This document shows positions 1,965 through 31,092 of a stretch of DNA of 32,821 nucleotides, one piece after another (position 1 is the stretch's first letter; every line of letters starts with the position of its first letter). The notes below the pieces were generated by a model. The model was not told the origin of the DNA and ran no database searches. It saw only the letters and a list, made by a program, of their open reading frames with translations. The translations under genes and the position numbers were made by a program. Source of the stretch: Gammaproteobacteria bacterium (lineage in GTDB: Bacteria > Pseudomonadota > Gammaproteobacteria > Steroidobacterales > PWYM01); NCBI GenBank assembly GCA_007127715.1, contig SKYU01000156.1, positions 1 to 32,821 on the forward strand, written 5' to 3'.

Positions 1965-2753
1965 CTACCGCGCGCTGTCGTGCCAGCGCGCCAGCAGCCG
2001 GCGTTCGAGCCAGGTGAGCGCGGCAAACAGGCCGATGCCAATCAGGGCAAGCAGCAGCAGGGCGGCGAACATCCGCGGGGTCTGCAGGCGATTGCCGGCC
2101 TCGATGATGCGCCAGGCCAGCCCCGGCGAGGTGCCGGAGCCTGCGACGAACTCCGCCACCACCACACCCACCAGGGACAGCCCGGCCGAGACCTTCATGG
2201 CCGAGAGCAGGTAGGGCAACGCAGCGGGCAGCCGCAGGCGCCAGAGTTCCTGCCAGGGCCCGCCGCCATAGAGCCGGAACAGCGCCCGCAGACCTGGATC
2301 GACGGCGCGCAGGCCGAGCGTCATGTTCGACAGCACGGGAAAAAACGCCACGATCCAGGCCAGCAGCACCACTGCAGTGCTCGCGTTGTCCACACCCACC
2401 CAGATCAGTACCAGAGGTGCGATGGCGACTACTGGCGTGACCTGCAGCACCACCGCATAGGGATAGAGGGCCGCCTCCAGCAGCCGGCTGCCGGTGAACA
2501 GCACGGCGATCAGCACGCCACCGACGACGGCGGCCACGAACGCCGTCAGCGTCAGCCGCAGTGTGTGGCCGGCCGAGGACAGCAACAGCGGCCCGGCCTC
2601 GAACCCCGCTGCGAGGATCATGCTCGGGGCCGGCAGTACGAATACCGGGACCTCACTGATGCGCACGCCCGCCTCCCACGCGAGCAGCACCAGCGCGCCC
2701 AGCACGAGCGGTGCGAGCCAGCGCTGCAGGGAGAGCGCCGCAGCCCCGCTCAT
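1965..2753 (-). CDS. ABC transporter permease, NitT/TauT or ThiX type
   Basis: 262 residues, an inner-membrane channel subunit of the binding-protein-dependent transport (SsuC/TauC/ThiX) superfamily. It has an N-terminal membrane segment, then further hydrophobic helices. The EAA-like cytoplasmic loop that contacts the ATPase lies at about residues 165-190 (ALFRLYGGGPWQELWRLRLP). Length and layout are normal for single-domain permeases of this class. Its start overlaps the end of the ATPase gene by 4 bases, so the two are translationally coupled. Together with the ATPase and binding protein it forms one importer. The substrate cannot be read from the permease alone. Confidence 0.88.
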   Translation of the reverse strand: MSGAAALSLQRWLAPLVLGALVLLAWEAGVRISEVPVFVLPAPSMILAAGFEAGPLLLSSAGHTLRLTLTAFVAAVVGGVLIAVLFTGSRLLEAALYPYAVVLQVTPVVAIAPLVLIWVGVDNASTAVVLLAWIVAFFPVLSNMTLGLRAVDPGLRALFRLYGGGPWQELWRLRLPAALPYLLSAMKVSAGLSLVGVVVAEFVAGSGTSPGLAWRIIEAGNRLQTPRMFAALLLLALIGIGLFAALTWLERRLLARWHDSAR

Positions 2754-3514
2754 GGAGCCTGCTCCGGACCGGCGGCGTGGCGCAGCCGCGCGGCGAGTTC
2801 GCCCCGCAATGCGGCGAACGCGGAATCCTCCCGCCAGGCATCGCCCCGCGGGTACGGCGCCGGCACCTCGACTTCGGCGATGACCCGGCCGGGACGTGGC
2901 GCCATCACCAGCACACGGGTCGCCAGGAACACCGCCTCATAGAGGCTGTGGGTCACGAACAGACAGGTGATACCCAGGCGGCGCCAAAGCGCCAGCAGCT
3001 GCTCGTTCATGCGCTCACGGGTGAGTTCGTCCAGTGCGGCGAAGGGCTCGTCCATCAGCAGCAGGCGCGGCTGCGTCACCAGGGCGCGGGCGATGGCCAC
3101 GCGCATGCGCATGCCGCCTGAAAGCTCCGCCGGGAGACTCTCCTCGAAGCCGTCCAGGCCGACCTGCCGAACCGCCTCGGCCACGCGGCTGGCGATCTCG
3201 TCGGACGCCCGATGCATCAGCTGCAGCGGCAGCGCGATATTGGCGACCACACTCGCCCAGGGCATGAGCGTCGGGTCCTGAAACACCATCCCCAGTTCCC
3301 CAGGCGCGCGGACCGCCGAAATCACCCTCCCGGATGCGGGTGCCGTCAGACCAGCGAGCAGCGACAGCACCGTACTCTTGCCGCACCCGGAGGGGCCGAC
3401 CAGGGCAACGAACTCGCCCGGCTGCAGACCCAGCGACACCCGGTCCAGGGCGCGCACGCCCCCGGCATAGCGATGGGTCACGTCCTCCAGCGCGAGTACC
3501 GTGGCCGTCGGCAC
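2750..3514 (-). CDS. ABC transporter ATP-binding protein, NitT/TauT type
   Basis: 254 residues. It powers the importer from the cytoplasmic face. Walker A is GPSGCGKST (residues 39-47), the Q-loop is in FQDPTLMPW, the signature is LSGGMRMR, and Walker B is LLLMDEPFAALD followed by the switch His in THSLYEA. The Q-loop context and the short length match the SsuB/TauB/ThiZ group. The gene starts 6 bases after the binding-protein gene and overlaps the permease gene by 4 bases, making a three-gene operon. All catalytic motifs are intact. Confidence 0.93.
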   Translation of the reverse strand: MPTATVLALEDVTHRYAGGVRALDRVSLGLQPGEFVALVGPSGCGKSTVLSLLAGLTAPASGRVISAVRAPGELGMVFQDPTLMPWASVVANIALPLQLMHRASDEIASRVAEAVRQVGLDGFEESLPAELSGGMRMRVAIARALVTQPRLLLMDEPFAALDELTRERMNEQLLALWRRLGITCLFVTHSLYEAVFLATRVLVMAPRPGRVIAEVEVPAPYPRGDAWREDSAFAALRGELAARLRHAAGPEQAP

Positions 3515-3520
3515 CGCGGG

Positions 3521-4543
3521 TCAGTCCTCGAGGTCCGGACCGTCGACGAAGGCGAGCGTATAGGCGCCCCGAGGATCGAGCTGCGGACTGTAGATGCCTT
3601 CGGCCGCCATGGTGGCGTGGAATTCCCGCCAGCGCGCGTGACTCATCGTACCGATCCCCCAGCGCGCCGCATCCCCGGAATCCACCAGGCCAAACGCGCG
3701 CATCTGTGCAATGGCATGGGCCAGCAGCTCAGGGGTCATCTCGGGATTGTCACGCAGGATCAGCGTGTTCCCGGGCGTGGGGTCGCCGTGCAGGTAATCG
3801 GCCCAGCCGCGCGCAGTGGCGGCCACGAAGGCCTGCACCACGTCCGGACGCTGATCGATCAGACGCTGATGGGCAAGCACCATCGCTGCATAGCCGGGAT
3901 ACCCCTCGTCCGCCAGCAGGAACACCTGCGGAGGCTCGCCCAGGGCCTGGCCGATGGCAAAGGGCTCGGAGGTCACGTAGCCCTGCTGGATCGCGCCCGG
4001 GTCGACCAGGAACGGCGCGAGATTGAACGTGTAACGGCGGATCTGGCTGTCGTCGAAACCGAACCGCGCCTGCAGCCAGACCCAGAAGGCGCCTATCGCC
4101 GCATCGGACAGCATGATGGGCAACCCCTGCATGTCCGCCAGGCTGCGGATATCCTCCCTCGGATGGGTGATGATGACCTGCGGGTCCTTCTGGAAGATCG
4201 CCATCACGGCGCGCACCGGGGCCCCTTCGGCTGCGAGGTTCATGCTGATGAACGCATTGGAGCCCAGACCGAAATCGACGGCGCCGGTGGCGATCAGCTG
4301 GGCGACGTTGACGGCGGGTCCGCCCTGGCGGAGCTGCACGTCGAGCCCTGCCTCACGGTAAAACCCGCGGGCGAGCGCCTGATAGAAGCCGCCATGCTCC
4401 GCCTGGGCACGCCAGTCGGTCGCGAAACTGACGCGAGTCAGTGTCGTGTCTTCTCCGCTCGGCGGGTCGCCCGCGCAGCCAGTCAGCCAGACAAGCACGA
4501 GCAGCGCCAAGACTCTAGAATCGATGTGCAACGCCCTGATCAC
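3521..4543 (-). CDS. ABC transporter substrate-binding lipoprotein (NMT1/THI5-like)
   Basis: 340 residues. A lipoprotein signal ends in LTGC, so the mature protein is anchored by its Cys. The body follows the NMT1/THI5-like (PF09084) pattern: an early DWRAQAEHGGFYQAL segment, then FYREAGLDVQL and a QGGPAVN stretch. The family includes binding proteins for thiamine pyrimidine precursors, riboflavin, taurine, nitrate and alkanesulfonates. The EHGG element is similar to that seen in pyrimidine-binding members, so a thiamine-precursor or related aromatic ligand is possible, but this is inference. I searched the 113-base gap upstream for TPP riboswitch elements and found none. It is the first gene of the operon and is divergent from nikR. 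Confidence 0.85.
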   Translation of the reverse strand: MIRALHIDSRVLALLVLVWLTGCAGDPPSGEDTTLTRVSFATDWRAQAEHGGFYQALARGFYREAGLDVQLRQGGPAVNVAQLIATGAVDFGLGSNAFISMNLAAEGAPVRAVMAIFQKDPQVIITHPREDIRSLADMQGLPIMLSDAAIGAFWVWLQARFGFDDSQIRRYTFNLAPFLVDPGAIQQGYVTSEPFAIGQALGEPPQVFLLADEGYPGYAAMVLAHQRLIDQRPDVVQAFVAATARGWADYLHGDPTPGNTLILRDNPEMTPELLAHAIAQMRAFGLVDSGDAARWGIGTMSHARWREFHATMAAEGIYSPQLDPRGAYTLAFVDGPDLED

Positions 4544-4656: not shown

Positions 4657-5076
4657 ATGACCGACCGGTTCACCGTCTCGCTGGAGCCCGCACTCGCCGC
4701 CGAGTTCTCGGCCTTCCTCGCCCGCAAGGGCTATGACAACCGCTCTGAAGCCGTGCGGGACCTGATCCGCGAGGCGCTGACGCGAGATCGGCTGGAGCAT
4801 GCGCCGGAGGGCGGCTGCGTGGGCGTGCTGAGCTATCTTTACGATCACCACGAACGCGAACTCTCCAAGCGCCTGACCGAGGTCCAGCATGACCATCACG
4901 ACCTCAGCGTGACCACCCTTCACATGCACCTCGACCGCGACACCTGTGTAGAGACCGCGCTGCTCCGGGGCCGGGCGCAGGACGTGCTGGCGTTCGGTGA
5001 GACGGTGATGTCCCGACCGGGTATCCAGCACGGTCGGCTCCACCGCATCCCCCTGCCCGACCGCCAGGGCGGATGA
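4657..5076 (+). CDS. nikR: Nickel-responsive transcriptional regulator NikR
   Basis: 139 residues, close to E. coli NikR. An N-terminal ribbon-helix-helix DNA-binding domain (RFTVSLE then NRSEAVRDLIREAL, residues 4-41) is followed by the ACT-like nickel domain. The high-affinity nickel ligands align with those of E. coli (H76, H87, H89, C95): here H78 in QHDHHDL, H89 and H91 in TLHMH, and C97. A GAGGAG ribosome site precedes the ATG. NikR represses nickel uptake genes when nickel is plentiful. It is placed immediately before the nickel uptake operon and a palindrome that is a likely operator, so it probably controls that operon. Confidence 0.95.
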   Translation: MTDRFTVSLEPALAAEFSAFLARKGYDNRSEAVRDLIREALTRDRLEHAPEGGCVGVLSYLYDHHERELSKRLTEVQHDHHDLSVTTLHMHLDRDTCVETALLRGRAQDVLAFGETVMSRPGIQHGRLHRIPLPDRQGG

Positions 5077-5120
5077 TGCCGCCTCGACCATGACCTCTCG
5101 GGCCCGCCGGTTGGCGGCGC

Positions 5121-5147
5121 GTATGAATTATGAAAAAATCTTCATAA
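5121..5147. promoter_or_regulatory. Putative NikR operator in front of the receptor gene
   Basis: An AT-rich palindrome in an otherwise GC-rich gap: TTATGAA (5128-5134), 6-base spacer, TTCATAA (5141-5147), a perfect 7-bp inverted repeat. An outer pair GTATGA (5121-5126) and TCATAA (5142-5147), 15 bases apart, resembles the E. coli NikR site GTATGA-N16-TCATAC with one spacing and one base change. The site lies 30 bases before the receptor start, where it could cover the promoter. Assignment to NikR rests on this similarity and on location. Confidence 0.65.
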
Positions 5148-5177: not shown

Positions 5178-7151
5178 ATGCGTCCTACCCGGCCCGTCAG
5201 CACCTTCGGGGTGCTGATCCTGGCATGGTCCGGCCTGCCGTCAATGGCACAGGCAGACGCCACCGGCCCGCTCGAGACACTGGTCGTCACCATCAGCCGC
5301 GAAGCACTGCCCGAGGACCGCACCGTCGCACCGGTGGTGGCGCTGGATCGGGAAGTGCTGGACCTGCGGCAGGCCAGCCAGCTCGATGACCTGCTGCGAG
5401 GGCTGGCCGGGGTCACGGCCGAGGGCGGGCCTCGGCAGGCGGCGCTGCAGCCGAACATCCGCGGACTTGGCGAAGGGCGCGTGGTCATGCGTCTCGACGG
5501 GGCCCGGCAGAACATGAACATCCGTCACCGTGGCCAGAGCTTCATCGACCCTGCACTGCTGCGCCGGGTGGAGATCTGGCGGGGGCCGGCCTCCACACTC
5601 CATGGCAGCGGCGCGATCGGCGGTGTGGTCAGCCTGCATACTCTGGATCCGGAAGACCTGGTAGCGCCGGGGCGCGAGCTCGGGGGACGCGCCACGCTCG
5701 GCTACCACGACAACGGCGACCAGCGCTTCGGAGCGGCGACCGTGGCCGCGCGCCGGGGCGACCTGGGGCTGCTCGCCAGCGTGAGCCGCCGACGCGCCGG
5801 CGACTTCCGGGCCGGAGACGGTGACACGATCGACTTCACCGGGAGCGACGTCCTCGGCACCCTGGGAAAGGTGACGTGGCAGGAACGCGACACCCAGCGC
5901 GTCACCCTGACCTGGCTGGGTTTTGACGACCAGGCGGAAAGCCTGCTCACAGCCGACCGGCCGACGGGCGTGAACATCGACCGACGCGTGCGCCAGCAGA
6001 CCGGCAGCCTGCGCTACGAGTTCCGCCCCGCGGCCAGCGCGCTCCGTGATCTCGACCTCACCGTCTACCGCACCGACCTCACGCTCGACGAGCGCCTTCG
6101 GACCACCGGCGACCGACAGGAAAACCAGCTGGAGACCACGGGGCTCGACCTGGCAAATGGCAGTGACTGGCAGATCGGGCGCATCCATCACCGCATCACC
6201 TGGGGGACGGAGTTCTACCGAGACCGCCAGCGCGGCACCGAGAATGGCCTCCCGCGAGAAGGCTTTGCCAGCGCCAGCCAGCACACCCTGGGCATGTTTC
6301 TGCAGGACCGGGTGAGTTTCGACGGCAGCTTCGAACTGGTCGCCGGCCTGCGCTACGATCGCATCCGCCAGCAGGCCGACCGCGCTGGTGCCGAAGACAA
6401 CCGGCTGGGCAGGCTGTCCACCCAGCTGGCACTCGAGTGGCCCCTGAGCGATGCATTGCGGGCCTATGCCGGCCGCGCCGAGGCCTTCCGGGCGCCCGCC
6501 CTGCGCGAGCTCTACATCGGCGGTCAGCATTTCCCCGGCAACCAGTATCTGCCCAACCCTGACCTGCGGGCCGAGCGGGCCCGCAACCTTGAACTCGGTC
6601 TGGTGTACGCCCGCCGGGACCTGTGGCATCCCGGCGATGCCCTGCAGCTTCGCGCCAGTGGCTTCCGTAACACGGTCGAGGATTTCATCGAGCAGGTGGT
6701 GCAGGCCACGACCACCCGATTCGAGAATGTCGAGGATGCCCGGGTGCGCGGCCTCGAACTGGAGCTGCGCTATCGTACGCCCCGCAGCCAGTGGCTCGCC
6801 GCCGCCGCGGTCCAGCGGGGTGACGACCGCGGCAGCGGGCTGCCGCTGGAGAGTATTCCCGCCGACAGCCTGAGCCTCGAGGGCGCCCTGCGCCAGGCCG
6901 ACGACGCGTGGCTTGTCGGCGCCCGTGCCACGCTCGTGCGGGCGCAGCGCCGGGTACCGGAAGGCCCCTTCACCATCGATGCCACACCTGGCTACGCCCT
7001 GTTCGACCTGTTCCTGCGCTGGACCCTGGCTTCCGGGACGACGCTGCATGCGGGCGTCGACAATGTCCTGGATGCGGACTACCGTGCCCACCTGACGCAA
7101 CTGAGCGGTCGTGGGCGAGGCCTGCGTCTGCAGCTGCAGCACCCGTTCTGA
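5178..7151 (+). CDS. TonB-dependent outer-membrane receptor, probably for nickel chelates
   Basis: 657 residues. The signal peptide ends in SMAQA, followed by a TonB box ETLVVTIS, a plug domain to about residue 160 (NIRGLGEGRVVMRLDGARQ; GPASTLHGSGAIGGVV), and a 22-strand-type barrel ending in Phe (LQHPF). The plug wording resembles the heme/hemoglobin receptor subgroup. That group also includes FrpB4, which takes up nickel in Helicobacter. The position directly behind nikR and its likely operator, and before NikK, NikL and NikMQO-like genes, points to nickel or a nickel chelate. The substrate is inferred from context; heme or another metallophore is the alternative. Confidence 0.88.
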   Translation: MRPTRPVSTFGVLILAWSGLPSMAQADATGPLETLVVTISREALPEDRTVAPVVALDREVLDLRQASQLDDLLRGLAGVTAEGGPRQAALQPNIRGLGEGRVVMRLDGARQNMNIRHRGQSFIDPALLRRVEIWRGPASTLHGSGAIGGVVSLHTLDPEDLVAPGRELGGRATLGYHDNGDQRFGAATVAARRGDLGLLASVSRRRAGDFRAGDGDTIDFTGSDVLGTLGKVTWQERDTQRVTLTWLGFDDQAESLLTADRPTGVNIDRRVRQQTGSLRYEFRPAASALRDLDLTVYRTDLTLDERLRTTGDRQENQLETTGLDLANGSDWQIGRIHHRITWGTEFYRDRQRGTENGLPREGFASASQHTLGMFLQDRVSFDGSFELVAGLRYDRIRQQADRAGAEDNRLGRLSTQLALEWPLSDALRAYAGRAEAFRAPALRELYIGGQHFPGNQYLPNPDLRAERARNLELGLVYARRDLWHPGDALQLRASGFRNTVEDFIEQVVQATTTRFENVEDARVRGLELELRYRTPRSQWLAAAAVQRGDDRGSGLPLESIPADSLSLEGALRQADDAWLVGARATLVRAQRRVPEGPFTIDATPGYALFDLFLRWTLASGTTLHAGVDNVLDADYRAHLTQLSGRGRGLRLQLQHPF

Positions 7152-7165
7152 ACCCGGAGTCCGCC

Positions 7166-7975
7166 ATGTCATCCCACCGCTCGACCCCATGCACCCTCGC
7201 CACGACAGGCGCGTGTCGCCGTCGTACCGGTGCGCCTGTGGCCGCCCTGCTGCTGCTGGCCGTGCTGCCCGCCGCCGAGGCGCATTTCGCCTGGCTGGAG
7301 ATCGTGAGTCTCGAGTCCGACCAGGTAGAGGTGGCCGTGGTCTTCGGCCATCATCCGCCGGCCGAGCGGCGACTGCCCGTCGAGCGCATCATCGAGGTCG
7401 AAGTCATATCGCCGGACGGCACCCGCCGACCTGCCCGACCGGCCGATGATGGCTGGCGGGGCCAGGTGGCCGGACCCGGCAGTCACCTGGTCGCGGCGCG
7501 ACAGCGACCGAGCTTCTGGAGCCGCACCGTGGAGGGCGGACGCAACGCCTCGCGCCGGGAATACCCCGATGCCTTCAGTTGCCGGGTGTCGGACAATGCC
7601 ATGAAGACGGTCATCGCAGGCCAGGCGGATGACGGGCATTCGCCGGCAGTCACACAGGCGGTCGGTCACCGACTGGAGATCATCCCCGAAGCCGACCCCA
7701 CGCGGCTGTCGGCAGGTGATCGGCTGCCGCTCCGTGTCCTGTTCGACGGTGAACCCTGGCAGGGCATGCTTCGGGCCACCTGGGCGGGCTATCCCGCCGA
7801 GCATGACGACGACTACCCGGTCCATCTCGAGACCGGCGTGGACGGACGTGCCGTGCTGGCACTGCCGCGCGGTGGCAGCTGGCTCGTCCATGCCAACGCC
7901 GAGACCGATCACCCGGGCCCGGCAGTCTGCGACCGCCAGGCGTGGAACGCAGCGCTGGCTTTCACGCTGCGTTGA
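7166..7975 (+). CDS. nikK: Periplasmic DUF4198/NikK-like nickel transport accessory protein
   Basis: 269 residues from an ATG with a GGAG site 7 bases upstream. A longer in-frame reading upstream overlaps the receptor gene and lacks a signal, so it was not used. The signal peptide ends AAEA, leaving His40 as the predicted first mature residue (HFAWLEI). The body is all-beta in character, with GHHPPAERRLPVE and a Cys at the FSCRVSDN segment, and it matches the DUF4198 pattern of proteins encoded with Nik/Cbi ECF transporters. These are thought to bind metal in the periplasm. It lies 14 bases after the receptor and 5 bases before the NikL-like gene, in one operon. The family call is from motif memory, not a search. 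Confidence 0.72.
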   Translation: MSSHRSTPCTLATTGACRRRTGAPVAALLLLAVLPAAEAHFAWLEIVSLESDQVEVAVVFGHHPPAERRLPVERIIEVEVISPDGTRRPARPADDGWRGQVAGPGSHLVAARQRPSFWSRTVEGGRNASRREYPDAFSCRVSDNAMKTVIAGQADDGHSPAVTQAVGHRLEIIPEADPTRLSAGDRLPLRVLFDGEPWQGMLRATWAGYPAEHDDDYPVHLETGVDGRAVLALPRGGSWLVHANAETDHPGPAVCDRQAWNAALAFTLR

Positions 7976-7980
7976 GCCCG

Positions 7981-8451
7981 ATGCCGCGACTCAGCCCCCG
8001 AGCAGGTCTGCTGTCCGCCGGAATGCTCGTCGCGACCCTCTGGGCCCTGGCGATGCCGGTATCCGCACATGGCCATGCCCTGCTCCACGACGTGGGCGAA
8101 GGACGCGCGATCACGGTCAGGCTTTACTTTCCCGATGACGACCGTCCGCTGTTCGAGCCCTATCAGGTGTTCGCACCTGGCAGCGAGCGGCCGTTCCAGG
8201 CCGGTCGTGTCAACGCCTTGGGCGAGGTGACCTTCCGGCCAGATCGCCCGGGCGAGTGGCGGGTTCAGGTCACGACCGCAGATGGCCATGGCGCACGGGT
8301 CACGCTCCAGCTGGACGCGGAGCTGGGCGTGGAGCGCGTTTCCGCGACGCCAGGCTGGGCCCAGCGCGTTCTGACGGGCCTCGGCTGGCTGCTCGGGTTG
8401 TTCGGACTGCTGGCGCTCTGGCGGCTGCACCGCGCGACACGACCAGGCTGA
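7981..8451 (+). CDS. nikL: NikL-like periplasmic/membrane component of nickel ECF transporter
   Basis: 156 residues. A signal peptide ends in PVSA, so the mature protein would start His-Gly-His-Ala-Leu-Leu-His (first residue H30). A beta-rich periplasmic domain follows, and a single C-terminal membrane helix (about 134-150, LTGLGWLLGLFGLLALW) ends the protein. In described Nik systems NikL replaces NikN/CbiN, a small two-helix subunit with a periplasmic loop; this layout agrees. The gene begins 5 bases after nikK and is followed by nikM at 15 bases. Without a search the family assignment depends on the layout and on the neighbours. Confidence 0.7.
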   Translation: MPRLSPRAGLLSAGMLVATLWALAMPVSAHGHALLHDVGEGRAITVRLYFPDDDRPLFEPYQVFAPGSERPFQAGRVNALGEVTFRPDRPGEWRVQVTTADGHGARVTLQLDAELGVERVSATPGWAQRVLTGLGWLLGLFGLLALWRLHRATRPG

Positions 8452-8466
8452 CAGCGGAAGCGCGCC

Positions 8467-9117
8467 GTGCATATCCCCGATGGACTACTGTCCCCCCAGA
8501 CCTTCATCCCGGCCTTCGCCATTGCAGCCCCGGCCTGGTGGTGGGCGAGCCGACGCGCGCGGCGACAGCTTGACGATGCCCTGCTGCCCCGTCTGGCAGT
8601 CTTCACGGCGTTCGCGTTCCTGCTGTCCACCCTGATGCTGCCGCTGCCGGGCGGCACCTCCGGACACGCGCTGGGGTTGGCACTGCTGACGCTGTGTTTC
8701 GGGGTGCCACTGGCCTTTCTTGCCTACACACTGGTGCTGGTGCTTCAGGCGCTGACGCTGGGGGCCGGCGGACTCACCGCGCTGCCCGTCAACGCCCTGT
8801 GCATGGGGCTGGTCGGCGCGCTGGTCGTCGCCGGTGTCTACCGCGGCCTCGGCGGTCTCCATGCCGCCACAGCCGTGGTACTGGCGACCTGGCTGTCGGT
8901 GATGCTGTCGGCCACGCTGGTTGCACTGGTGCTCGGCGTGCAACCGCTGATCGCCCGGGACGCCGACGGCGCACCCCTGTTCTTTCCCTTCGGCCCGGCC
9001 GTGACGTTGCCGGCCATCCTGCTGCCCCATGCGGTGCTGGCGACGGCCGAAGCGGCACTGACGCTGCTCGTATGGCGGCATGCGCGACGCCGGCAGTGGC
9101 TGGCGAGGGTCGCATGA
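8467..9117 (+). CDS. nikM: Nickel ECF transporter substrate-binding membrane subunit NikM
   Basis: 216 residues with a GTG start, chosen because translation then begins Met-His-Ile-Pro-Asp-Gly, the CbiM/NikM signature. In NikM the N-terminal amine, His2 and His67 coordinate the metal; here H2 and H67 (in GGTSGH, residues 62-67) are both in the exact positions. About six membrane helices follow. As the S-component of an energy-coupling-factor importer it selects the metal at the inner membrane. CbiM (cobalt) has the same fold, so the nickel call rests on the neighbouring nikR. Its stop overlaps the start of the next gene (ATGA). Confidence 0.93.
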   Translation: MHIPDGLLSPQTFIPAFAIAAPAWWWASRRARRQLDDALLPRLAVFTAFAFLLSTLMLPLPGGTSGHALGLALLTLCFGVPLAFLAYTLVLVLQALTLGAGGLTALPVNALCMGLVGALVVAGVYRGLGGLHAATAVVLATWLSVMLSATLVALVLGVQPLIARDADGAPLFFPFGPAVTLPAILLPHAVLATAEAALTLLVWRHARRRQWLARVA

Positions 9118-9674
9118 AACCGAATCGACACAGTCTGGCGCTGCTCGGCTGGGCCGCTGCGGTGGTGACCAGCACCCTCGTGCACGAGCCGGCAGTCCTG
9201 GCGGCGGCACTGCTGGGTGTGCTGCTCCTGTCCGGCCGGGGCCGGTGGGCCCTGGCCACTCGCACGCTGAAAGCGGTCGCCGCCGTGGTGCTGCTCATCA
9301 GCCTGGGCTACGTCGGCATGGGGTGGCTTGGGGGCACTCTCGACACCGCCGTACTGCTCCGCCTGAATCTGCGGCTGCTGCTGATCGCGATGCTGACCGC
9401 CTGGATGCTGCGCGATGTGCCCTTGATCACGGCGCTGTCGGGTCTGCCGAGCGCACAGCGTTGGCTGGTCATCGTCCAGGCTCAGGTCGCCCTGTTTCGG
9501 CGGCTGGCAGAGGACTACCGGCTGGCCCGTCGCAGCCGCAGCACCGTCGCACCCACGCTGCGCCAACGCTATCTGGGCGCTGGCAGCCTGACGCTTGCAG
9601 CCCTGGACAAGGCCGTGCACAACGCCGAGACCGTCACCCAGGCGATGCGCGCCCGCGGAGCCCTCGATGACTGA
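9114..9674 (+). CDS. nikQ: ECF transporter T-component NikQ/CbiQ
   Basis: 186 residues, starting at the ATG that overlaps the nikM stop. A longer in-frame reading that overlaps nikM was set aside. It has four to five hydrophobic helices and then a soluble coupling region. The C-terminus has ETVTQAMRARGALDD, matching the Ala-x-x-Arg-Gly coupling motif by which CbiQ-type proteins bind the ATPase. Typical CbiQ is 220-260 residues, so this is a short form. It transmits ATPase movement to NikM. Overlap with the following ATPase gene is 8 bases, so synthesis is coupled. Confidence 0.87.
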   Translation: MKPNRHSLALLGWAAAVVTSTLVHEPAVLAAALLGVLLLSGRGRWALATRTLKAVAAVVLLISLGYVGMGWLGGTLDTAVLLRLNLRLLLIAMLTAWMLRDVPLITALSGLPSAQRWLVIVQAQVALFRRLAEDYRLARRSRSTVAPTLRQRYLGAGSLTLAALDKAVHNAETVTQAMRARGALDD

Positions 9675-10470
9675 ATCGCGGTCTGCCGAGACGCCGCTGA
9701 TGCGCCTGGAAGACGTCCACCTCATCCATGGGGAGGGCCGGATCGCGCTGGCAGGGATCGACCTCGAGATCAGGCGCGGTGAACGCCTGGTCCTGCTGGG
9801 GGGCAACGGCAGCGGCAAGAGCACGCTGCTGAAGCTGCTCGATGGGCTGGTATTCCCGACCCGGGGACGCTACCTGTTCGAGGGGCAGACCATGGACGGA
9901 TCGGCGACCCGGCGTCATGGCGGGCTTCCCGACTTCCGGCAGCGGGTGGTCCTGATGTTCCAGCACCCCGAGGCGATGCTGTTCAACCCCAGTGTTCGCG
10001 AGGAACTCGCCTATGGGCTTCGTCATCTGCCCGACGACGAGCGGGATGCACGCGTGATCTACTGGGCCGGTGCGCTGGGTCTCGCCGGCCGGCTCGAAAC
10101 CCAGCCCTCGGAGCTGTCCGGCGGCGAGAAGCAGCGTCTCTGCCTGGCCTGCCTGCTGGCCGTGGAACCCGAGGTGCTGCTGCTGGATGAGCCGACCGCC
10201 AATCTCGACCCCCGCACGACCGGCTGGCTGCTGGACTGGCTGGCCGACCGCGAGATCACCAGCGTGGTGGCCACCCACCAGCTGGGCATGGCCGCGGAGC
10301 TTGGCGAGCGCCTGGTGGTCCTGGGCGAAGACCATGCCATCGTCTTCGACGGGTCGGTGGAACAGGGCCTCGGGGACCTGGAGATGCTGACCGCCCAGGG
10401 GCTGGCGCACGTGCACGGCCACCGCCACGGCGCCCGGTTTCATCGACATCCGCACTGGCATGGCGACTGA
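9667..10470 (+). CDS. nikO: Nickel ECF transporter ATPase NikO with His-rich tail
   Basis: 267 residues. Walker A GGNGSGKS, Q-loop FQHPEAMLFNPSV, signature LSGGEKQR, Walker B LLLDEPTANLD and the switch His in ATHQ are all intact, and the FQHPEAMLF segment is typical of CbiO/NikO. The start overlaps nikQ by 8 bases; an upstream in-frame ATG inside nikQ was set aside. The last 23 residues contain eight His in an almost alternating pattern (HVHGHRHG ... HRHPHWH), which is not part of the usual ATPase fold. This tail probably binds nickel at the cytoplasmic side. It ends the operon, 9 bases from the convergent DUF2845 gene. Confidence 0.92.
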   Translation: MTESRSAETPLMRLEDVHLIHGEGRIALAGIDLEIRRGERLVLLGGNGSGKSTLLKLLDGLVFPTRGRYLFEGQTMDGSATRRHGGLPDFRQRVVLMFQHPEAMLFNPSVREELAYGLRHLPDDERDARVIYWAGALGLAGRLETQPSELSGGEKQRLCLACLLAVEPEVLLLDEPTANLDPRTTGWLLDWLADREITSVVATHQLGMAAELGERLVVLGEDHAIVFDGSVEQGLGDLEMLTAQGLAHVHGHRHGARFHRHPHWHGD

Positions 10471-28046: not shown

Positions 28047-28922
28047 ATGTCGGTTGCAGCATACCCTTGCCGCGGGACGCGACCCAGCGACCAGGAGACT
28101 CCCATCATCAACGCGCGCAGCATACTCCACACCTTTCATCGCTGGGTGCTTCGATCCCGCCACCTGAACGCGAAAATCCCCCAGCATGATCTCGTTCTCC
28201 GGGTCACCCCGGCTGACGTGGTCGGCAGGCACCTCTACAAGTATCGGGAATACGAACCTGGAGTCGCCGCGACACTGGAAGAGCACGTCCGGCCCGCCGA
28301 GGGTGACCTCTGCCTGGACATCGGTGCCAATATCGGCTGGTATTCGTTACTGGTCTCACGACTGTCCGGAAATGCAGCGACGGTGCTTGCGTTCGAGCCC
28401 GATCCGGACAACTACCGCCTGCTGGAACACAATCTTCGGCACAACGATGTACCCCTTGTCCGCGCCTTCCGGCGCGCGGTCGGCGAGACCCCGGGGACGC
28501 TGCAGCTGCACCGCTACGGGCGGGGCAACACCGGCAGGCACTCACTGCTCCCGCTGCATGAAGGCGAGACCGTTGATGTCGAGGTGGTCGGGCTGGACAG
28601 GTTCCTGGAAACAGAGGGTCTGGGGTCCACCCCGATCAAGCTGCTGAAAATGGACATCGAAGGCTATGAGCTGCCGGCGCTTCGTGGTGCCCCACGGGTT
28701 CTGGAGCGCACGCAGTGGGTGTTGATAGAGCACTCGCCGGCCTACATGCGCCAGGCGGGCATGGTGCCCGGTGACCTGGTTCAGCTGCTGGTCAACAGCG
28801 GCTTCGCGCCGTTCGAGCCCGAGGCGGGGCCGCTGGTCGGGATCGCGGCCGACGTGCTCCGCAACGACCCCGACCAGCGTAACGTGCTCTGGCGCCGGAC
28901 TCCGGCTCAGCCCTCGCCGTAG
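28047..28922 (+). CDS. FkbM family SAM-dependent methyltransferase
   Basis: 291 residues from the ATG at 28047. Motif I is LCLDIGANIGWYSLL, followed by VLAFEPDPDNYRLLEHNL, and the family end KLLKMDIEGYELPALRGA with LIEHSPAY. FkbM enzymes methylate hydroxyl groups on sugars, polyketides and other molecules. The start is uncertain: this ATG has little ribosome-site support, whereas a perfect AGGAG (28093-28097) sits 6 bases before an in-frame ATC at 28104, a very rare start codon. The gene overlaps the convergent BtuB gene by 16 bases. Next to a GT-B-fold gene, a role in glycan decoration is plausible. Confidence 0.85.
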   Translation: MSVAAYPCRGTRPSDQETPIINARSILHTFHRWVLRSRHLNAKIPQHDLVLRVTPADVVGRHLYKYREYEPGVAATLEEHVRPAEGDLCLDIGANIGWYSLLVSRLSGNAATVLAFEPDPDNYRLLEHNLRHNDVPLVRAFRRAVGETPGTLQLHRYGRGNTGRHSLLPLHEGETVDVEVVGLDRFLETEGLGSTPIKLLKMDIEGYELPALRGAPRVLERTQWVLIEHSPAYMRQAGMVPGDLVQLLVNSGFAPFEPEAGPLVGIAADVLRNDPDQRNVLWRRTPAQPSP

Positions 28923-30709
28923 CGCAGCCTGAGGAATACCGTCCGGCCGGGCTCCTGAAAATCGAAACCGGCGAAGCTGTCGCGTGCCGTGGTGTAGGCC
29001 TTGTCCAGCGCATTGTCGAGCGTCAGGCGCAGGGACAACCGATCGGTGAACGCCCAGCCGGCACGCAGACTCAACAGCCCGAACCCGCCGAGGCGCTCGG
29101 TGGCGGCGGGGTTGTTGTAGCGATCGCCCTGGATCACCAGACTGGCACCGAGCGACCAGCGCTCGCGGCCCGTATCGGCATCCAGTCGGAAGCTGTCGCG
29201 CGTGCGCCGCGGCAGCCGCAGGTCGGTCTGTCGATCGACCGGATCGAGGTGACTCCAGGCCAGGGCCAGCGACCAGCCGCCGAGCTCGACGCCACCACTG
29301 GCCTCGACTCCACGGATCCGTGCCTCGGCCACGTTGAACGCAGCAAAGCGGCCATCGACCACCGTAAACGCGATCAGGTCGTCAATATCGGTCTGATAGA
29401 CCGCCACGTCCCAGAACAGGGCCTGCGAGCGCCCGCTGAGACCAAGCTCGATGCTGCGGGAAGTCTCTGGCTGGAGATCCGGGTTGGCGAACCCCGGGAA
29501 ATACAGGTCGTTGAAGGTGGGCGCGCGGAAGGCCGTGCCGACGCTGGCCCGCAGCCGCTGGGTCTCGCCCAGCGGCAGGCCGAAGGTCAGTCCTCCGGTC
29601 CATTCGCTGCCATAGGCCTCGTTGTCGTCGAATCGCAGGGCCGGCTGAAGGTCGAAGGCTCCCAGGCGCACCAGACCACGGGCGAACACCCCAAGGTTGT
29701 CGCGCGATCGCTCGTCATACGCGGTGGTGCTGTCCACAACGTCCTCGCGCCATTCCGCACCAAACACGAACTCATGGCGCGCCAGGTCCAGCACATTCAG
29801 CCAGCGGACCGCCCTCAGACGTGTATCGAAGCGGCTCGGCCCGAATGCCGTCAGGTTGTCTGCCTCGTCCCGGCCCTCGTTGAGCGCGAGCTCGCTGGTC
29901 CAGATGTCGCCCAGAGGCAGCGAGACGGTGACCGCCGCCGACTGGTGAACGAAATCCGTCTCGCCGCCCACGAACTCGGTGTTGCCCTGCGAGCGCAAGG
30001 CGTTGAGCCGGAGGCTCAGACCGTTATCGAGCCGGGCATTGCCTCGCAGAAAAAACGAGGTGTTGTCGTAACCCTTGCGATCGCCGCCCGGCTGCAGCGC
30101 GATGCCATCGCTGCGGAAGCGGTTGACCGCCACGCCCAGCGAGGCCTGTTCGCCACCGGTGTCGAAACCCGCTCCAAGCTCCCGCGTATCGAAGCTGCCG
30201 AGACCCGCGTGACCCCAGGCACCCGGCGCTGCCGCGGGGGCACGGGTAAACACCTGAACCACGCCACCGACCGTATCGGCCCCGTAGATGGCTCCGCGTG
30301 GACCGCGGACGATCTCGATCCGCTCGATCAGCTGCGGCGGGACGAATTGCCAGGTCGGACCGCCGCTGGTCGCCGAACCCATGCGCACGCCGTCTATCAG
30401 CAGCAGCGACTGACTGTTGCTGGTGCCACGCAGGAAGAAGCTGGTGACCTTGCCATAGGGTCCGTTGCCACTGACATCGACGCCGGGCTGCGCACGCAGC
30501 AGATGAGCAAGATCTCGCGGCAGCTGACGTTCGATGGCCGGTCCGTCGACCACGGTAACGGAGACATCGCTCTCCGAGAGCAGACGCTCGGTGAGCGTCG
30601 GGGTGACGACCAGGGTATCGAGGGGATCCATCGCCTCCATGGTATGGGCAGGCATGGACAGAACGCTGAGCAGGCCCAGCGCGCAGGACTGAGGGAACAG
30701 AGGTTTCAT
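28907..30709 (-). CDS. btuB: TonB-dependent vitamin B12 receptor BtuB
   Basis: 600 residues. The start at 30709 is preferred (GGAGAG upstream and a signal peptide), not the longer in-frame reading, which runs into the riboswitch. After the signal comes the TonB box DTLVVTPT (31-38), a plug with GVDVSGNGPYGKVTSFFLRGTSNSQSLLLIDGVRMGSATSGG and GPRGAIYGADTVGGVVQVFT, then a beta barrel ending near VFLRLRY. The wording of the plug is typical of BtuB. It imports cobalamin across the outer membrane. A cobalamin riboswitch precedes it, so it is expected to be turned off when B12 is abundant. No other B12 import gene is adjacent. Confidence 0.92.
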   Translation of the reverse strand: MKPLFPQSCALGLLSVLSMPAHTMEAMDPLDTLVVTPTLTERLLSESDVSVTVVDGPAIERQLPRDLAHLLRAQPGVDVSGNGPYGKVTSFFLRGTSNSQSLLLIDGVRMGSATSGGPTWQFVPPQLIERIEIVRGPRGAIYGADTVGGVVQVFTRAPAAAPGAWGHAGLGSFDTRELGAGFDTGGEQASLGVAVNRFRSDGIALQPGGDRKGYDNTSFFLRGNARLDNGLSLRLNALRSQGNTEFVGGETDFVHQSAAVTVSLPLGDIWTSELALNEGRDEADNLTAFGPSRFDTRLRAVRWLNVLDLARHEFVFGAEWREDVVDSTTAYDERSRDNLGVFARGLVRLGAFDLQPALRFDDNEAYGSEWTGGLTFGLPLGETQRLRASVGTAFRAPTFNDLYFPGFANPDLQPETSRSIELGLSGRSQALFWDVAVYQTDIDDLIAFTVVDGRFAAFNVAEARIRGVEASGGVELGGWSLALAWSHLDPVDRQTDLRLPRRTRDSFRLDADTGRERWSLGASLVIQGDRYNNPAATERLGGFGLLSLRAGWAFTDRLSLRLTLDNALDKAYTTARDSFAGFDFQEPGRTVFLRLRYGEG

Positions 30710-30849
30710 TTCGTGTCTCTCCACCGGACGCGCCAACCCGCACGACCGGCCTTGCAACGGCTGACGTGGCGCGGAGAGGGTCAGGCAGACAGAGATGCGC
30801 GCGAAGACGCACACCAGAGACCGGCCCGGTGTTGCCCTCCGCAACACGT

Positions 30850-31016
30850 GGTGCATGCACCAGGCCGGTCTACGGGCTTACGCGCGATGCAGCGAATGCA
30901 TCCGGCAGGCCACCTTCCCATGCGACAGCACAGTGGTGTACGGCCAGCCTTGACGACGTCTACCGTTGCGGGGGCAGCACCGGAGTTGTGCAAAGTGAGC
31001 GCTCTGCACGCACCGG
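30850..31016 (-). promoter_or_regulatory. Cobalamin riboswitch in the btuB leader
   Basis: Read on the minus strand, conserved elements occur in the right order: GGTGCTGCCCCCGCAACGG (the core around 30962-30980, matching the 'GCAACtG' element), ACCACTG (30930-30940 area), GGGAAGGTGG, and the B12 box TAAGCCCGTAGACCGGCC (30863-30880). After the box a TGGTGCATGCACCA palindrome (30849-30862) closes the aptamer region, and a GTGTTGC/GCAACAC hairpin (30829-30847) follows. Boundaries are approximate. Placement about 140 bases before btuB fits a class-I-type B12 riboswitch. Confidence 0.9.
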
Positions 31017-31064
31017 TTTCCCGATTATTTCCGCGGATCGCGGAACACCTGGAGCGGGATCGAA

Positions 31065-31092
31065 GCTATCACGCGCCAATCCGGCGGGTCAA
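31065..31092 (-). promoter_or_regulatory. Possible promoter for the riboswitch-btuB transcript
   Basis: On the minus strand TTGACC (31087-31092) is followed after 16 bases by GATAGC (31065-31070). The first is a near-consensus -35; the second matches the -10 at its central bases only. It starts just past the stop of the upstream lipoprotein gene and lies about 50 bases before the aptamer. Confidence 0.35.

Follow-up and report, generated by a model that had tools for sequence, protein, structure and literature searches.

The DNA analysed here (a stretch of 32,821 nucleotides, referred to as the window) carries nikR, a NikR-type box, a gene for a TonB receptor and nikKLMQO, in that order. The open reading frames were re-read, and the positions given for nikK to nikO in the original prediction, which had proposed a histidine relay for nickel through these genes, were correct. 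The features used below, all on the + strand, are:

4657..5076, +, nikR, nickel-responsive regulator, 139 aa (PF08753, E 7.5e-27; translation with LHMHLDRDTC)
5121..5147, +, NikR-type operator GTATGA-N15-TCATAA, 1 mismatch against GTATGA/TCATAC; kept in three same-genus loci (L094, L095, L096)
5178..7151, +, TonB-dependent outer-membrane receptor (PF00593, PF07715; the heme-receptor-like subfamily TIGR01785 scores above cut-off)
7166..7975, +, nikK, secreted DUF4198 protein (PF10670, E 4.4e-30; fold similar to 9GCB and Zcp)
7283..7285, +, codon of the mature His1 of NikK (His in 46/46; Ala, Gly or Ser before it in 46/46)
7349..7351, +, codon of the mature His23 of NikK, in Gly-His, candidate second ligand (46/46; aligned near His18 of 9GCB)
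7981..8451, +, nikL, signal peptide, Ig-like domain and C-terminal membrane helix (NF058648, E 9.9e-16, below cut-off; AF2 pLDDT 93.1)
8074..8076, +, codon of the conserved NikL His, H32 of the precursor, likely the mature His1 (60/60)
8284..8292, +, Gly-His-Gly of NikL, candidate second ligand, H103 of the precursor (60/60)
8467..9117, +, nikM, S component, GTG start (PF01891, E 2.2e-49)
8467-8472 and 8665-8667, +, Met1-His2 and His67 of NikM (H2 and H67 invariant in 19; aligned with 4M58)
9114..9674, +, nikQ, T component (by position and homologues)
9667..10470, +, nikO, ATPase (PF00005, E 8e-31; ECF ATPase models)
10408..10461, +, NikO tail HVHGHRHGARFHRHPHWH, 4+4 alternating His (pattern in 51/70 loci; 15/104,000 shuffles)

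The match of NikL to NF058648 reaches 58 bits against a curated cut-off of 100, and NikL adjoins NikM across relatives. NikQ gave no match to any Pfam or NCBIfam model and was placed by its position between NikM and NikO, which is conserved in relatives. We infer that the locus encodes a NikR-controlled NikKLMQO ECF nickel importer, nickel transport being read from nikR and the NikR-type box, and the TonB receptor is assigned a putative role in nickel uptake by its position. The same gene set is found in the group I ECF nickel transporters of Synechocystis (sll0381-0385) and Brucella (ure2 nikKMLQO), where nickel uptake by NikKLMQO has been shown by mutants (PMC5904137, PMC2868824). Compared with these systems, the window adds nikR and the TonB receptor, and a patterned His tail on NikO.

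The regulator gene lies directly upstream, as in relatives, and the box stands ahead of the TonB-nikKLMQO operon (nikR and box, 4657-5147); neither figured in the original prediction. Of 53 named relatives, 14 have such a box ahead of the operon at 0-1 mismatch; allowing up to 3 mismatches raises the number to 39 of the 53, against 18 expected from shuffles. A NikR operator with the N16 spacing of E. coli was also tried and gave only chance-level matches in the window, while the N15 form fits. On the opposite strand, genes for an ABC importer (NMT1/THI5-like binding protein, ATPase and permease; 1968-4543, - strand) adjoin nikR. Two relatives from the same genus (L094, L096) also have the ATPase of this importer next to their nik operon.

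N-terminal histidines of NikK and NikL

Conservation was assessed in two samples. The first comprised the window and 38 neighbourhoods extracted from whole genomes within its phylum; a His follows a signal-peptidase-type junction in all 35 NikK/DUF4198 proteins and all 28 NikL-like proteins of this sample, whose selection relied in part on family models covering the His. The second consisted of 80 named loci identified by NikM only, in which NikK and NikL were detected by HMMs that lacked the first residues and had the His-rich columns masked. In this blind set, with the window counted in, the first mature residue is His in 46/46 NikK and 60/60 NikL proteins, and a second His is equally invariant in each family: that of Gly-His at precursor residues 61-62 of the window's NikK (46/46), and that of Gly-His-Gly at residues 102-104 of NikL (60/60). 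The residue before the first His is Ala, Gly or Ser in every NikK (46/46) and in 59 of the 60 NikL proteins, and position -3 of NikL is small or aliphatic throughout. The alignment of homologues that had been proposed as a check on the original prediction thus came out in its favour for both proteins, and the NikM His and the NikO tail (below) are conserved as well.

A crude rule-based signal-peptide finder was applied to the window and the 38 loci; of its 101 candidates, 11 had His at +1. Ten of the 11 were NikK or NikL, so that the frequency among other candidates was about 1 in 91. Occurrence of the His at the cleavage site by chance was ruled out by the blind conservation in NikK and NikL.

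The cleavage site of NikK reads PAAEA|HFAW, with His as the mature start, as had been predicted. The AF2 model of NikK (pLDDT 94.7) is similar in fold to PDB 9GCB and to the Zcp structures, at TM values of about 0.76-0.80 by query length. The protein in 9GCB, IsDUF4198, holds Ni by His1 and His18 with a Ni Kd of 18 nM, as published in October 2025 (PMC12537917), and the PDB record names its chain NikK. It is like the window's NikK in fold, N-terminal His and second His, at 28% identity in the fold alignment. Either His23 or the adjacent His24 of the window's NikK is aligned at His18 of 9GCB, the gap placement being ambiguous, and His23 is the family-invariant one of the two. NikK has the sequence and fold features of the DUF4198 N-terminal-His proteins, namely a mature His1, a second His and the DUF4198 beta-sandwich. 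Nickel binding by the N-terminal His of DUF4198/NikK is already published chemistry, and the original statement that no relay of this form had been described has, for NikK, been overtaken by the report of a Ni-bound N-terminal-His brace in DUF4198 (PMC12537917).

CopC-type copper proteins share the N-terminal His metal ligand with NikK but differ in fold, and the DUF4198 geometry is facial and Ni-preferring, unlike theirs (PMC12537917). Membership of NikK in the CopC family was ruled out on fold, 9GCB and Zcp being matched and CopC being absent among the best 50 fold matches. A set of DUF4198 proteins without an ECF cassette (L104-L112), several of them near a TonB receptor, also keep His1; these have Ser-Asn at the position of the second His of NikK, which may reflect a different metal or geometry.

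In NikL the sequence is PVSAHGHALLH, where signal peptidase could cut at two sites, VSA|HGH and AHG|HALLH, either of which leaves His as the first mature residue. Judged from the sequence, cleavage at AHG|HALLH is the more likely, because the mature N-termini of homologues line up with the second His, H32. The original prediction that NikL starts His-Gly-His therefore holds with respect to a mature N-terminal His, but its start is probably two residues off, H32 being the residue that is invariant in homologues. In a 28-sequence alignment, with identities to the window's NikL down to 9%, the only invariant columns are the two His. In its AF2 model, NikL forms a sandwich of eight strands and has a single C-terminal helix. 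The fold matches of this model are weak (best E 5.6e-3) and superpose poorly; the top ones include Zcp, whose structures have the DUF4198 fold and contain zinc, copper or cobalt. Profile comparison by hhalign connects the C-terminal domain of NikK with NikL (88.6%, P 2.7e-6). We take His1 and the GHG His to form a putative metal site in NikL.

An analogy can be drawn with the anglerase domains Ang-1 and Ang-2, N-terminal-His domains on HupE/UreJ-2 permeases (PMC12537917). Like these, and by analogy only, NikL would be an N-terminal-His Ig-like domain on or beside a metal permease: His1 follows the signal peptide in 60/60, the model has eight strands, and NikM is adjacent or fused. The anglerases, however, sit on another permease family, Ang-1 has one His and an Asn where NikL has two invariant His, and the Ang-1 structure 9GCE is absent among the best 50 NikL fold matches. 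The papers found on NikKLMQO group I ECF transporters describe no metal sites for NikL. A literature search that was thin on subscription journals returned no published description of the NikL His site and no account of the ordered NikO tail; these two parts of the system are apparently new.

Small NikL-like proteins that lack a membrane helix and have His directly after AxA occur in other loci (L097-L102, L113-L115). Six of them adjoin DUF4198 in loci that have a different ABC ATPase close by but no NikM, and these proteins are possibly parts of importers of another metal.

NikM, its fusion to NikL and the NikO tail

In agreement with the original description, NikM begins Met-His and carries H67, and both His are invariant in 19 NikMs. 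Met1-His2 and His67 align with the same positions of the solved NikM2 (PDB 4M58; also 4M5B and 4M5C), whose Met-His site and Ni ligand set are established knowledge. This NikM2 comes from a NikM system that has NikN in place of NikK and NikL. Two NikM systems encode MAHIPDG, where loss of the Met before Ala would again place His second.

NikM and NikL occur as a single open frame of 421-434 aa in one genus (L080:3133-4434, - strand; L082:3976-5238, + strand), which suggests that NikL acts at NikM. The fusion retains an internal junction, VWA|HN or AWA|HN, and its His is N-terminal only if the chain is cut. Cutting within a polytopic membrane protein, as the fusion would need, is unusual.

The final 23 residues of NikO contain 8 His, as first noted, and these have the order HxHxHxH-x4-HxHxHxH. 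The order was found in 51 of 70 NikM loci, with a spacer of 4 in 42 of the 51. Shuffling of equally His-rich tails reproduced the 4+4 pattern in 15 of 104,000 trials, by which a merely His-rich stretch was ruled out. The tail is distributed over beta-, gamma- and epsilonproteobacteria, Persephonella, Aminicenantes and others, and is missing from several other KLMQO clades. It is thus considered an optional module, not an obligatory step. The alternating His may form a hairpin, and the tail is a putative metal-binding element.

A possible path for nickel across the envelope

On balance we think it probable that the window encodes a NikR-controlled NikKLMQO importer with conserved His metal sites in series across the envelope. 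The TonB receptor would provide the first step. Secreted NikK would then capture Ni(II) via a brace of His1 and His23, and NikL, with its His made N-terminal by processing and tethered beside NikM, would hold the metal via His1 and the GHG His and load NikM, replacing NikN/CbiN. NikM would bind Ni via the N-terminal amine, His2 and His67, uptake would be driven by NikQ and NikO, and the ion released inside would, in the window's clade, meet the 8-His tail of NikO. Three N-terminal sites are conserved on this route and a NikM-NikL fusion exists; what would explain them most simply is a transfer from NikK to NikL to NikM.

A relay is made plausible by the blind conservation of the NikK and NikL His, the fold match to 9GCB, H2 and H67 of NikM, the NikO tail, the fusion, and nikR with its boxes. 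Counted against it are the weak fold match of NikL, the His of the fusion, which stays internal if the chain is left uncut, the absence of the tail in several KLMQO clades, and a search of the window's own genome (G000, about 90% complete) in which urease and [NiFe]-hydrogenase were not found. What survives of the relay as originally proposed is a set of conserved His sites in all four proteins, between which hand-off is plausible; the NikO tail does not belong to it as a required station.

We propose, more tentatively and with less than even confidence, that NikL represents an undescribed family of N-terminal-His metal-binding proteins, and that three N-terminal-amine Ni sites pass the ion inward to the 4+4 element of NikO. 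If this is true, nickel is channelled from periplasm to cytoplasm and does not diffuse. The proposal addresses how the S component is loaded in metal ECF transporters that lack a classical binding protein, where NikK and NikL usually figure as 'additional components'. The NikL His pair would extend the N-terminal-His nickel proteins of 2025 to a membrane-tethered loading subunit and, together with the ordered NikO element, offers a few point mutants able to test stepwise hand-off of nickel.

The sites could also act independently, with NikK as a scavenger or store in the periplasm, NikL as a NikN-like structural or gating partner of NikM, the NikO tail as a buffer in the cytoplasm or a nickel sensor acting on the ATPase, and NikM loaded from solution. 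Such an arrangement would accommodate the optional nature of the tail and the complete site present in NikM alone, but it fits less well with the existence of the NikM-NikL fusion, and NikL keeps just two metal-type residues, one of them at the processed N-terminus, which goes beyond a purely structural need; we consider it rather unlikely. If the N-terminal segment of NikL were instead an uncleaved anchor, as in the two-helix CbiN/NikN, the His would not be N-terminal and could offer side chains only. The literature does term NikL an integral membrane protein, and the segment is internal to the polypeptide in the fusion. The Ala, Gly or Ser before the His and the small or aliphatic residue at -3, however, form a signal peptidase pattern that an uncleaved anchor would not keep right before an invariant His, which makes this reading improbable.

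With respect to the metal, import of cobalt for B12 instead of nickel would be in line with NikK1ML1QO operons, some of which adjoin B12 genes or riboswitches (PMC2667541), with the outcome of the urease and [NiFe]-hydrogenase search and with the presence in the window of a cobalamin riboswitch (RF00174, 103 bits) ahead of a second TonB receptor (28910-31067, - strand). We rejected cobalt as very improbable because nikR and its operator are present before the operon, as in relatives, whereas the riboswitch is ∼20 kb from the nik operon on the other strand and lies ahead of another TonB receptor. Two same-genus genomes (G001, G004) show [NiFe]-hydrogenase-family matches, and the second TonB receptor, behind the riboswitch, is probably of the B12 type.
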